Origin: Nanobdellota archaeon
GTDB taxonomy: Archaea > Nanobdellota > Nanobdellia > Parvarchaeales > Parvarchaeaceae
Assembly (NCBI GenBank): GCA_021818905.1
Contig: JAKASS010000002.1
Location: 1 to 64,000, forward strand
Length of the DNA stretch: 64,000 nucleotides
Direction: 5' to 3'
In this document: in pieces, positions 363 to 6,485 of the stretch
How positions within the stretch are numbered: position 1 is the stretch's first letter
Layout: the number at the start of each line of letters is the position of its first letter
Notes under the pieces: generated by a model
What the model was told of the DNA's origin: nothing
Databases searched by the model: none
The model's input: the letters and a program-made list of their open reading frames with translations, nothing else
Program-made: the position numbers and the translations under genes

Positions 363-665
363 TTACTTTACTGCTACCGAAACTTTTCCTACTATTAAAC
401 CCCTTTTTATCGGACCAAAAGCCCTACTATCTGAACTTACCGCTTTGTTGTCTCCGATTACTAAATATGAATTTTCCTTAAGCTTTCTAGATATGCGTTT
501 TACAAGAAATTTAGTTTGAGACGGGTGTTTAAACACGATTATTTCGCCTACCTTCGGTTTTTTGAAGATGTACGCAAGTCTATTTACGATTATATAGTCC
601 CCCTCTGATAATGTCGGCTCCATGCTTCTATCGGTTATTTTAAAGCGTTCTAACGGAAACCACAT
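363..665 (-). CDS. S26-family peptidase, probable Ni-SOD maturation protease
   Basis: This 100-residue protein has the signal-peptidase (S26) fold signatures. The nucleophile Ser14 lies in DRSMEPTL, the probable general-base Lys56 in LVKRIS, and the conserved box GDN...SSDSRAFGPI at 71-86. Unlike true signal peptidases it has no obvious transmembrane anchor. It is the last gene of a tight operon: its start is 2 nt from the Nudix gene and that gene is 7 nt from sodN. In bacteria a small S26 enzyme (SodX type) next to sodN removes the SOD leader so that His1 can bind nickel. The same role is inferred here from context. A LexA-like or general processing protease is the alternative. Confidence 0.8.
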   Translation of the reverse strand: MWFPLERFKITDRSMEPTLSEGDYIIVNRLAYIFKKPKVGEIIVFKHPSQTKFLVKRISRKLKENSYLVIGDNKAVSSDSRAFGPIKRGLIVGKVSVAVK

Positions 666-667
666 AT

Positions 668-1108
668 CTATCGATTTCTACTGTCTTTGTAAACGCTTAT
701 TCCGTCTTTCAGTATCTGCTCATGGTCAAAAGCTAATCGCGGCAAATCATCGATCCGCCACCATTTCACTTCTTTTGCATCGTCGCCACCTTTTGGTTCG
801 CCCATAACGTCGGACAAGGTGTACGTTACCGATACTTTGTGCCCGCGTGGGTCTCTGTCGGGGGCAGAATAGACTCCTACCAACTTTCCTACTTTGGCAG
901 ATAAGCCCGTTTCCTCAAAGAATTCGCGTAAAACTGCCGCTTCGGTAGTTTCTCCATACTCTACGTGCCCACCGGACAGCGCCCATTTACCTTCAAAGGG
1001 AGGTATCCCCCTTTTTATAAGTAAAACCTTTCCATTTTGTATCGCAACGGCATCTACACAAAGCGCGGGGTTTCTATACTTTTTATCTTCTTTTTTTTCC
1101 ATGACCAA
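668..1108 (-). CDS. Nudix hydrolase (ADP-ribose pyrophosphatase-like)
   Basis: The 146-residue protein contains a complete Nudix box at about residues 46-68 (GGHVEYGE, then REFFEETG), the Mg-binding catalytic loop that cleaves nucleoside diphosphates linked to X. Preceding residues (KVLLIKRGIPPFEGKWALSG) match archaeal ADP-ribose pyrophosphatase/MutT-like enzymes. The substrate cannot be read from the sequence. It lies between sodN (7-nt gap) and the S26 protease (2-nt gap), so it is probably co-transcribed with them and may clean oxidised or toxic nucleotides under oxidative stress. The ATG at 1108 is preferred; an ATG two codons downstream would also work. Confidence 0.88.
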   Translation of the reverse strand: MVMEKKEDKKYRNPALCVDAVAIQNGKVLLIKRGIPPFEGKWALSGGHVEYGETTEAAVLREFFEETGLSAKVGKLVGVYSAPDRDPRGHKVSVTYTLSDVMGEPKGGDDAKEVKWWRIDDLPRLAFDHEQILKDGISVYKDSRNR

Positions 1109-1115
1109 AAATCGA

Positions 1116-1634
1116 TCAAACTTTTGGTAGCACTATATCGTGCTCTGTGGAGTAGAACGCCTTTACTTTAACCGTTTCAACGCCCTTCGTTTTCCAGAAT
1201 ATTTCGGCAAATTTATTTACATTATCAAGAAGCTCTTCCGAAGCTGGCATATTTATCTCCTGTTTGACCTTAGAGCCGAGCTTCATTATCTTCCAGACTA
1301 GATCGTGGAGTTCTGGAAATTTCTGGAGGTGTTCTGGTTTAAAGTAATCCCCCCATATTATCCTGACTTCTTGCTTGCAAAGTTCTGCGTGTTTTTCCTT
1401 GGTTTCGGTGTATCTGACCAGTTTATGGTGGTAGTCGTTAAGCTCTTCTGGCTTTGCATTATCGGGAGGTACTTTTAGCTGACTTATCAGCATGTCCATT
1501 CTTATCACGGTATGGGCGGATAATTGCGCTAAGTGTGGGTCATATATGCCGCAAGGAATATCACAATGCGCGTATGCCACTTTAGAAGGTAAAATCTTAT
1601 TTGCGAGATCAAAAAACGATTTTAATACTGACAT
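1116..1634 (-). CDS. sodN: nickel superoxide dismutase precursor
   Basis: The protein has 172 residues. Its nickel hook HCDIPCGIYD starts at residue 23 and matches the Ni-SOD hook HCDxPCGxYD. His1, Cys2 and Cys6 of the mature enzyme bind nickel, and Asp3 and Tyr9 shape the active site. The rest is the expected helical bundle (TVIRMDMLISQL, RIIWGDYFKPEH). The 22-residue leader ends in AYA just before His23, and must be removed for activity. The S26 protease two genes downstream is the likely processing enzyme. The enzyme disproportionates superoxide to oxygen and peroxide in the cytoplasm. A TATA-like box lies 24 nt upstream of the start. Ni-SOD is known mainly from bacteria, so acquisition by transfer is plausible. 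Confidence 0.93.
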   Translation of the reverse strand: MSVLKSFFDLANKILPSKVAYAHCDIPCGIYDPHLAQLSAHTVIRMDMLISQLKVPPDNAKPEELNDYHHKLVRYTETKEKHAELCKQEVRIIWGDYFKPEHLQKFPELHDLVWKIMKLGSKVKQEINMPASEELLDNVNKFAEIFWKTKGVETVKVKAFYSTEHDIVLPKV

Positions 1635-1651
1635 AGTTATCGAATCACTTC

Positions 1652-1664
1652 TTTATTTATAAAC
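1652..1664 (-). promoter_or_regulatory. TATA-like box for sodN operon
   Basis: The minus strand reads GTTTATAAATAAA, centred about 24 nt before the sodN ATG at 1634. This spacing fits an archaeal TATA box with transcription starting at or just before the start codon. It would give sodN its own promoter inside the 43-nt gap after the hydrolase gene. Confidence 0.5.
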
Positions 1665-3704: not shown

Positions 3705-4193
3705 ATGACCGAAGTTTTCCCGATAGATGCAAGGGTTAGTTACATTAGAGGGATACTCGCTATAATAAAAGGAAACGGCGGTTCGGCATCGCTTTCCCAC
3801 ATAACAAGGGAATCGCTTGAGGGCATAGACGAGATCTTCCCGGTCATAGAAGCGGCGAAGATATTGGGCTTAGTGACCGTCGAAGAGGGCGTGGTTTCCT
3901 TGACGGATTCTGCTAAAGATCTAAGCCAAAAAGAACTCAAGAAAGACCTTAGCGATCTGTTAAAAAACGTGGAGCCGTTCAAAAGCATCATAGAGTTCCT
4001 GTGGAAAGCCCATCGGGCGTCGACAGAAGAGCTTTTTGACGTCCTTTTAAAGAAGAACTTTATGACCCAGATAAACAGGACATCTGATATAGAAAAATTT
4101 AGAAAAGAGATGCTCGGTCTGCTTGTAAGGACTGAGATATGCTCTTACGACGCGCGAAAAGATTCGTGGAAACTGTACGAATCTAAGGACTGA
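3705..4193 (+). CDS. AAA-associated domain protein, partner of ABC ATPase
   Basis: The 162-residue protein resembles the AAA-associated C-terminal domain normally fused behind NitT/TauT-type ABC ATPases. It has a helical, winged-helix-like N-terminal part and a C-terminal region with FRKEMLGLLVRTEICSYDARK. Here it is a separate gene whose 3' end overlaps that of the ABC ATPase gene by 11 nt in a tail-to-tail arrangement. A regulatory role in transport or transcription is inferred from the domain's usual context. A TATA-like TTTATAAT (3671-3678) lies about 30 nt upstream of the ATG. No catalytic residues are evident. Confidence 0.7.
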   Translation: MTEVFPIDARVSYIRGILAIIKGNGGSASLSHITRESLEGIDEIFPVIEAAKILGLVTVEEGVVSLTDSAKDLSQKELKKDLSDLLKNVEPFKSIIEFLWKAHRASTEELFDVLLKKNFMTQINRTSDIEKFRKEMLGLLVRTEICSYDARKDSWKLYESKD

Positions 4194-4932
4194 GTCTTGC
4201 AAAGACTTCGTCTACCGTTTTTTGAAAATCCTTGTCGTGCCTATTTCGCGGATATGGAAGATCGATCTTTTTTATCTCCTTTACAAGGCTTGGCTTATTC
4301 GACAGTATAACGACTTTATCAGATAGCTCTACCACCTCTTCCACGTTGTGCGATACCATTATGACCGACATCAATGAAAGGCTTTTATCCTTTAGCATAT
4401 TCGATACTTCTTCCCTAAGACTTCTTGCAGTGAGCTCGTCGAGAGAACTAAATGGCTCGTCCATAAGGATCACTTTAGGGTCAGAAACGAGCGCTCTTGC
4501 CACACCGACCCTTTGCTTCATCCCGCCGCTAAGGATGTTTGGATACGCATATTCAAAACCGTTTAACTCAAATCGTTTTAATATCTCCAGGGCTTTTTTA
4601 TTTTTTACATTGTCTTTTAAGTCAGTAGACGAAAGGCCGATCTTTACGTTTTCTATGTTAGTAAGCCATGGGAGCAGGGCGGAATCCTGAAAAACGAAGG
4701 AGATGTCTTTGATGGGTTCGGTGACTGCGTTCCCATAGTATGATATCCTGCCTGACGTCGGCGCTATCAGACCCGCTATTATCCTTAAGAGGGTGCTTTT
4801 ACCGCAACCCGAAGGGCCTATTATGGAGACAAATTCATATTCCCCAGTTGAAAACGAAATATCGTCTATTATCTTAGCGCTTGCCTTGTCTTCAAATGCA
4901 AACTTTATGTTCGCTACTGAGATTACTTCCAT
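4183..4932 (-). CDS. NitT/TauT-family ABC transporter ATP-binding protein
   Basis: The protein shows all ABC ATPase motifs: Walker A GPSGCGKST, Q-loop VFQDSALLPW, signature LSGGMKQRVGVARAL, Walker B VILMDEPFSSLD and switch His in MVSHNVEE. Similarity is to nitrate/sulfonate/taurine importers (SsuB/TauB/NrtD class). The ATG at 4932, 2 nt past the permease stop, is preferred over an upstream TTG at 4938 that overlaps the stop. It energises the membrane component encoded just upstream. The substrate may be an anion but is not determined, because no substrate-binding protein is encoded nearby. Confidence 0.92.
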   Translation of the reverse strand: MEVISVANIKFAFEDKASAKIIDDISFSTGEYEFVSIIGPSGCGKSTLLRIIAGLIAPTSGRISYYGNAVTEPIKDISFVFQDSALLPWLTNIENVKIGLSSTDLKDNVKNKKALEILKRFELNGFEYAYPNILSGGMKQRVGVARALVSDPKVILMDEPFSSLDELTARSLREEVSNMLKDKSLSLMSVIMVSHNVEEVVELSDKVVILSNKPSLVKEIKKIDLPYPRNRHDKDFQKTVDEVFARLSP

Positions 4933-4934
4933 AG

Positions 4935-6485
4935 TCAAGTGTAAACTGCGGTCACTTTATCGTATAGCCTTCTCCATACGACTATATTGAATATTATTAT
5001 CATTGCGGTCATATTAATTAAAGCGATAAGCATCAGGTACAAATTGCCGGAATATAACGCCGTATCCAATAATTTCCCTATGCCCGTCCCTACAGAAGTC
5101 AGCACGGCGCCAGTGCTGTTCGAAATGAAATATTCCGCTATTATACTTGCGTTCCATTCTGCGGCTATTGCGGTCACTGCGCCGGTTATAAGCCCAGGCA
5201 GTATGGCAAGTAGATATATCTTCCTCCAGGCAATCGAACCTTTTACCCTGAATACCCGCCTTACTTCATCGATATTTAATTTTACATATTTAGTGCTCGC
5301 TATTATGCTAAAAATAACGTACCAGACGCCGCTAAGGAAATAAACCATAAACGCGACCGCTTCGCCGTTGTTTCTTAACTCAAAAACCATTATCGGCAAT
5401 AGTACCGTAGCCGGTATAGACGCTAGTATCTGGAATCCCAATAGGTATGAATTCTTACGTTTTGTCATGAAGACTACATAAACACTTATAGGGATCGCCA
5501 CTACTAGGACAAGTAAAAACGCCCCCCAGACCCTTAAAAAAGAAGCGGCTAGCGAGGTTATCGCTATCCACTCATAAGAACCGAGTTGCGATAATGCATT
5601 CGGATTCGTATTACTGTATATCAAAAATGCTACAGACGTGATGACTATGCCGGCTATAAGGTAGCCGAATCTCCTTAAAAATCTTTTATGTCTTGAGACG
5701 GAAGAACCTATGCTAGTCTTTATGCCTATATACTCTTGTTTAAGTTTATGGAGTGTTATCGAATGGTCGATCCTGTAGCCGATATTAAACCTTGATTTAT
5801 GCTTCTTGGTGTCGTAACCGACTAAGCTGTACCTATTTGCCATTTTATCAAAAGCGGAAAATAGGGTCAATCTTGTAATCACCACAAACCCGATGAATAT
5901 AGCTAAGGCTATCCCATAGTAAAGAAAATTGCCGTTTGTCCCTAATCGTGCAAGGTCTACGCCTATCCCTTGTACCGAATAATTTGCATTTCCGGTAGAA
6001 AATATCTCACTTGTTACTAAATAGAAAAGTCCTATGGCCCAGGATAAACTTAATTGTTCTGACAGCCTTGGAAGACTAGCCGGGATGTACAACTTCTTGA
6101 GCCGTTCGAACGTCCCTAATCCATAAAGCTTTGTCATCTCTACAAGCTCGACTGGCAGCGTCTTTATGGCTTCGTACACTCCGAAGATCATATTCCACAG
6201 CATGCTGGTTATTATAAGGGAGATCACGGCGGCGTTTATGCCGATTATGCCGGGCAGTATAAATACGACTACATAAATCGCAAATGGAAAGAAAGCAAGT
6301 ATCGGCAATGTCTGTAATACGTCTATTATAGGAACGACTATTTTGCCGAAAGTCTTTAGTCTGGCTGCGCCTATGCCTATAGCTAGACTTATTACTATGG
6401 ACGCAGCCAACGCCAAGAGCATCCTCACCCACGAGTAAGAAGTATCCAAAAGTAACGATAGTATCTCTGGTATCAGGGACAGCAT
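4935..6485 (-). CDS. ABC transporter permease, duplicated (fused) type
   Basis: The 516-residue integral membrane protein is two permease domains in tandem. Each ends with an EAA-like coupling loop, one around TKLYGLGTFERLKKLYIPAS and one around RRVFRVKGSIAWRKIYLL. A cytoplasmic linker of about 50 residues rich in Lys/His separates them. This is the architecture of the anion-type ABC permeases with duplicated components known in archaea (COG4986-like). About ten to twelve membrane helices are predicted. With the adjoining ATPase it forms an importer of the NitT/TauT class. The first gene of the pair, it is 56 nt from the KaiC-like gene upstream. Confidence 0.88.
   Translation of the reverse strand: MLSLIPEILSLLLDTSYSWVRMLLALAASIVISLAIGIGAARLKTFGKIVVPIIDVLQTLPILAFFPFAIYVVVFILPGIIGINAAVISLIITSMLWNMIFGVYEAIKTLPVELVEMTKLYGLGTFERLKKLYIPASLPRLSEQLSLSWAIGLFYLVTSEIFSTGNANYSVQGIGVDLARLGTNGNFLYYGIALAIFIGFVVITRLTLFSAFDKMANRYSLVGYDTKKHKSRFNIGYRIDHSITLHKLKQEYIGIKTSIGSSVSRHKRFLRRFGYLIAGIVITSVAFLIYSNTNPNALSQLGSYEWIAITSLAASFLRVWGAFLLVLVVAIPISVYVVFMTKRKNSYLLGFQILASIPATVLLPIMVFELRNNGEAVAFMVYFLSGVWYVIFSIIASTKYVKLNIDEVRRVFRVKGSIAWRKIYLLAILPGLITGAVTAIAAEWNASIIAEYFISNSTGAVLTSVGTGIGKLLDTALYSGNLYLMLIALINMTAMIIIFNIVVWRRLYDKVTAVYT

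Follow-up and report, generated by a model that had tools for sequence, protein, structure and literature searches.

A sodN-sodX nickel superoxide dismutase module of known bacterial type in a Parvarchaeota-like DPANN archaeon

The 64,000-nucleotide stretch of DNA analysed here (the window) very probably carries a sodN-sodX module of the type known from bacteria, in which the protease SodX trims the leader of the nickel superoxide dismutase (Ni-SOD) precursor SodN and thereby exposes His1 for nickel. By profile comparison the family match of the locus is far beyond chance, and the locus belongs to a type already covered by curated models; these models, the linkage of the two genes and the universal Ala at the end of the leader together identify a member of the sodN-sodX family, not an isolated transfer. 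The host genome (0.94 Mb, listed as 100% complete) is, to judge from its sequence, that of a Parvarchaeota-like DPANN archaeon; the closest named relative is a Candidatus Parvarchaeota metagenome-assembled genome (MAG; locus L034) with a SodN 94% identical to that of the window. The locus comprises the following features:

1656..1663, minus strand: archaeal TATA box, TTTATAAA, 22-29 nt upstream of the sodN ATG
1116..1634, minus strand: sodN, predicted Ni superoxide dismutase precursor of 172 aa (Sod_Ni, TIGR02753)
1569..1634, minus strand: SodN leader of 22 residues, MSVLKSFFDLANKILPSKVAYA, ending in AYA before HCDIPC, as read from the sequence
1119..1184, minus strand: SodN C-terminal tail (last 22 residues), predicted beta-hairpin with strands at residues 154-158 and 166-170 in the model
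668..1108, minus strand: Nudix hydrolase gene (PF00293, 88.5 bits; Nudix box intact)
363..665, minus strand: sodX, putative soluble S26-family Ni-SOD maturation protease of 100 aa (TIGR02754; Ser14/Lys56 dyad)

The three genes follow one another on the minus strand in the order sodN, Nudix gene, S26 protease gene, with a single TATA box ahead of them and intergenic gaps of 7 nt (sodN to Nudix gene, presuming a TTG start of the latter; its first ATG, at 1102, gives 13 nt) and 2 nt (Nudix gene to sodX). Every feature that the first-pass annotation had read from the sequence (the nickel hook, the 22-residue leader, the Ser/Lys dyad and the lack of an anchor) is present, and its spacings of 7 and 2 nt stand, given the TTG start; its boundary at 1664 takes in the promoter because the TATA box lies at 1656-1663. 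As expected of an archaeal promoter, the position of the box would fit a leaderless or near-leaderless mRNA. A box of the TTTATAAA/TTTATAAAC type is found at the same distance before sodN in four relatives (L034, L017, L015 and L004).

SodN scores 151 bits against Pfam Sod_Ni (PF09055; cut-off 25) and 169 bits against the TIGR02753 sodN model (cut-off 90). Its hook HCDIPCGIYD follows the Ni-hook pattern H-C-x-x-P-C-G-x-Y (His1, Cys2, Cys6, Tyr9), of which H1, C2, P5, C6, G7 and Y9 are invariant in 94 SodN sequences. The AlphaFold2 model (pLDDT 93.9) is a four-helix bundle that superposes on the Streptomyces coelicolor NiSOD (4ncq) with Z 17.1 and rmsd 1.1 over 109 residues, the nearest unrelated fold reaching Z 10.3. 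The mature protein is predicted to start at His23, directly after the leader. Position -1, immediately before His1, is Ala in all 172 leaders compared, and 165 of the 172 have Ala (109) or Val (56) at position -3; these statistics are biased for the 80 loci that were retrieved by similarity to the window SodN, because one query peptide (YAHCDIPC) spans the cleavage site, and the evidence free of this bias is that of the loci retrieved with the Pfam model. Residues 2-14 of the leader form a short helix in the SodN model. Its maximum 8-residue hydropathy is 1.25, compared with 2.25-3.0 for three Sec signals of Escherichia coli, and a Sec-type export signal is ruled out by the missing hydrophobic core and by the S26 protein's lack of an anchor.

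Linkage of the two genes extends far beyond the window. Among 94 loci from DPANN archaea, Thermoplasmata, CPR bacteria and Chloroflexota, a SodX homolog is encoded near sodN in 91; of the other three, L016 lies at a contig end, and L061 and L077 have none within about 4 kb. The locus sequence examined around sodN likewise contains no SodX in L148, L149 and L190. Within the phylum of the window, sodN occurs in 14 of 279 genomes, all of which have SodX: 11 of the 14, and none of the 265 others, match TIGR02754 at E<=1e-8 (Fisher p ~2e-17), and in the remaining three (G003, G037 and G063) a SodX gene adjoins sodN. Thus, the likeness to bacterial sodN-sodX that the first-pass annotation had proposed is confirmed by TIGR02753 and TIGR02754, by linkage and by co-occurrence. 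A complete maturation pair occurs across many DPANN archaea and in some CPR bacteria. Ni-SOD is commonly regarded as bacterial, with few archaeal exceptions. The initial description of the enzyme as mainly bacterial is partly outdated, Ni-SOD being present in 87 of 340 Thermoplasmatota genomes and in many other DPANN archaea besides the 14 genomes of this phylum. Archaeal Ni-SOD has already been published (PMC10783094).

The same set of loci bears on the Nudix gene, which the first-pass annotation had assigned to the same response. An intact Nudix box and the tight spacing between sodN and sodX would suit a Nudix enzyme that works with SodN and SodX as a third component, perhaps by clearing oxidised nucleotides, and the gene still adjoins sodX in L017 as well as in L015, which keeps the nudix-sodX pair although the pair is inverted relative to sodN. 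However, a Nudix gene adjoins sodX in only four of the 94 loci (that of the window, L001, with L034, L015 and L017, all Parvarchaeota-like), and L004 and L010, of the same genus, have sodN-sodX with no Nudix gene there. In the closest relative (L034:4520-4900) the Nudix frame is broken at least twice, once inside the Nudix box, next to intact sodN and sodX; this may reflect a pseudogene or an assembly error. Membership of the Nudix hydrolase in the module is accordingly unlikely, and its assignment to the same response did not hold up; the gene lies in the transcription unit but is probably outside the core module. Other genes recur more often as neighbours, namely a small Rieske-type ferredoxin gene beside sodN-sodX (L034, L017, L015, L004, L036 and L038) or a Bcp-type peroxiredoxin gene upstream of sodN (L003, L029 and L039).

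The S26 protein scores 80.1 bits (cut-off 63.25) against TIGR02754, the NCBIfam equivalog model for the Ni-type SOD maturation protease. Its dyad residues are Ser14 (in RSMEP) and Lys56 (in VKR), which, like Pro17, do not vary among 54 aligned sequences. A Kyte-Doolittle mean that peaks at 0.85 over 19 residues indicates the lack of a membrane anchor, and the closest structural match to the AlphaFold2 model (pLDDT 95.3) is E. coli LepB (Z 14.5, rmsd 1.3, 94 residues). The protein thus resembles type I signal peptidases (LepB, SPase I) in fold, in its Ser/Lys dyad and in the AXA specificity suggested by the sequence of the putative SodX site, but it has neither their membrane anchor nor their second domain, and its gene is linked to that of a single substrate. 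A general minimal signal peptidase, with SodN exported and acting outside the cell, would account for the shared fold, for the agreement of an AXA site with the signal peptidase rule and for a whole-protein score against TIGR02227 (bacterial signal peptidase I) of 88 bits, slightly above the 80 bits of TIGR02754, so that model scores alone do not part SodX from signal peptidase. That reading is nevertheless very improbable: the S26 protein has no anchor and the leader no hydrophobic core; an archaeal signal peptidase that does have an N-terminal membrane segment is encoded elsewhere in the genome (37372-37950); and the S26 gene tracks sodN across genomes. True signal peptidases also branch apart: in a tree of SodX and signal peptidases (122 columns, most forks weak, some of the SodX genomes also supplying the signal peptidases), a single branch (SH-aLRT 95) unites 13 signal peptidases and leaves out the window protein, a fourteenth row labelled SPase being the SodX of genome G842 itself, found twice. 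A LexA/UmuD-like self-cleaving regulator beside sodN, to which a weak Peptidase_S24 match (35 bits) and the related folds of LexA and lambda repressor (Z 11.8 or lower) might point, has a probability close to nil and is ruled out by fold, architecture and model scores, since the protein starts at the catalytic domain with neither a DNA-binding domain nor a self-cleavage linker, the S26 models score far higher and LepB is the best structural match. The TIGR02754 match, the neighbourhood, the co-occurrence, the LepB-like fold and the tree instead support a SodX-type Ni-SOD maturation protease, in agreement with the original reading of the protein as SodX-type and not LexA-like. With 100 residues and probable solubility, this SodX would be a handy protein for a protease assay.

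From these features we infer that SodX cleaves the leader, that the proteins reside in the cytoplasm, and that SodN is loaded with nickel and active as a superoxide dismutase. The SodN precursor would be synthesized in the cytoplasm with its N-terminus blocked by the 22-residue leader; SodX, a soluble Ser/Lys protease with no more of the signal peptidase fold than its catalytic core, would cut after AYA, exposing His1; His1, Cys2 and Cys6 would then bind nickel; and the nickel-loaded SodN would dismute superoxide. Cyanobacterial SodX has been described as cleaving the preprotein (PMC8346466). The module shares with the sodN-sodX of Streptomyces and marine cyanobacteria the Ni hook, a leader that ends in Ala (and would be removed here), the four-helix bundle and an adjacent small, anchorless Ser/Lys protease. 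It differs from them in its archaeal host, in a leader of about 20-22 residues, in having Ala/Ser17 and His47 in place of Glu and Arg, in a conserved C-terminal hairpin, in the Nudix gene inserted in some members of the genus, and in the absence of Fe/Mn-SOD. The Ni-SOD of marine group II (PMC10783094) is likewise archaeal and mostly exclusive with Fe/Mn-SOD, and SodX also lies beside sodN in 30 MGII-like Thermoplasmatota loci, labelled so by their HCDGPC hook; these enzymes differ in their HCDGPCGVYDPA hook of cyanobacterial kind, their Ala17/Glu47 pair and short C-terminus, and their position on another branch of the SodN tree. Apart from the MGII-like set, most Thermoplasmata loci carry sodX and sodN on opposite strands, as do several Chloroflexota loci (L140-L147 and L183-L186), from which the archaeal operon order differs.

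Ni-SOD and Fe/Mn-SOD are mutually exclusive in the phylum of the window: an Fe/Mn-SOD match is found in none of the 14 Ni-SOD genomes, compared with 148 of the 265 others (p 1.7e-5, uncorrected for relatedness). Within the genus, three genomes have only Ni-SOD (G000, G054 and G195), seven have only Fe/Mn-SOD (G087, G120, G151, G171, G196, G250 and G257) and none has both (p 0.008, likewise uncorrected). A genome-wide search of the window genome gave no match to Fe/Mn-SOD or to superoxide reductase. The module sits in a conserved gene order, xth-dcd-hydrolase-sodN-(nudix)-sodX-Rieske-nth, that recurs in two other Parvarchaeota MAGs; because the window contig begins left of sodX, the Rieske and nth genes are visible only in relatives. 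G054 and L015 retain sodN-sodX-Rieske-nth, with sodX inverted in L015. Contamination is unlikely, given this recurrence of the syntenic block, in part also in G054 and L015. At the syntenic site of G151 the module is absent, the dcd-nth gap measuring 265 bp with no gene of at least 60 aa within it, and the Fe/Mn-SOD gene of G151 lies about 4 kb from that site. In this lineage the module appears to do the job that Fe/Mn-SOD does in sister species. A published survey reports Mn-SOD for Parvarchaeota (PMC5864196), so the Ni-SOD described here adds to that picture.

The His1-Glu17-Arg47 hydrogen-bond network of Streptomyces NiSOD has been discussed in the literature, its role being posed as a question (PMC5722923). 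In Streptomyces numbering, the SodN of the window has Ser17 and His47, the latter being His82 of the precursor, in place of this Glu17 and Arg47, and most of its relatives pair Ala or Ser17 with His47. Residues 17 and 47 co-vary across 173 sequences, Glu with Arg or Gln and Ala with His or Glu: all eight sequences with Glu17 have Arg or Gln47, and the remainder are mainly Ala17 with His47 (104) or Glu47 (31). The C-terminal tail, with a YPTER..VYPK pattern, is conserved in the clade of the window and absent from Streptomyces NiSOD, a Woesearchaeota-like subset and many Chloroflexota. We found no description of this variant (17/47 and tail) in the open literature, to which the search was confined, and priority for describing it is uncertain. 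We tentatively propose, as a possibility that we consider somewhat doubtful, that most archaeal and CPR Ni-SODs constitute an unrecognised subtype, with an Ala/Ser17 and His47 second sphere holding His1 and a C-terminal beta-hairpin added on to an otherwise all-helical enzyme, and that in Parvarchaeota the module took the place of Fe/Mn-SOD through insertion at a single chromosomal position. If there is such a subtype, its catalysis or metal loading would differ from that of the sole structurally known form; the natural Ala/Ser17-His47 variants make the role of the His1-Glu17-Arg47 network testable by comparison.

In the SodN tree, which is unrooted, moderately supported and sampled in favour of relatives of the window, the window protein falls within a clade of 47 sequences, mostly from DPANN archaea, with CPR sequences beside it, and this clade is part of a larger Chloroflexota-rich set. 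Unrooted and without cyanobacteria, most actinobacteria and proteobacteria, the tree gives no direction of transfer. Its topology would fit an ancient bacterial-archaeal transfer with later spread and loss, and the position of the window sodN inside a broad archaeal clade indicates that any transfer was old and shared. The suggestion that the gene may have been transferred is therefore compatible with the data in this older form, but an isolated recent transfer from bacteria is unsupported, given the archaeal clade and the archaeal promoter. The relationships of the two proteins are not fully concordant (identities to the window of 69% for SodX and 63% for SodN in L017, and of 49% and 79%, respectively, in L015), which implies that the two genes may not always travel together. 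The module gave no match among phage records, and the only matches among plasmid records were in Nonomuraea and Novosphingobium. Elsewhere in the window, at 4183-6485, the open reading frames look like an ABC transporter of the nitrate/sulfonate type, with a permease of 516 residues that resembles two fused permease domains.
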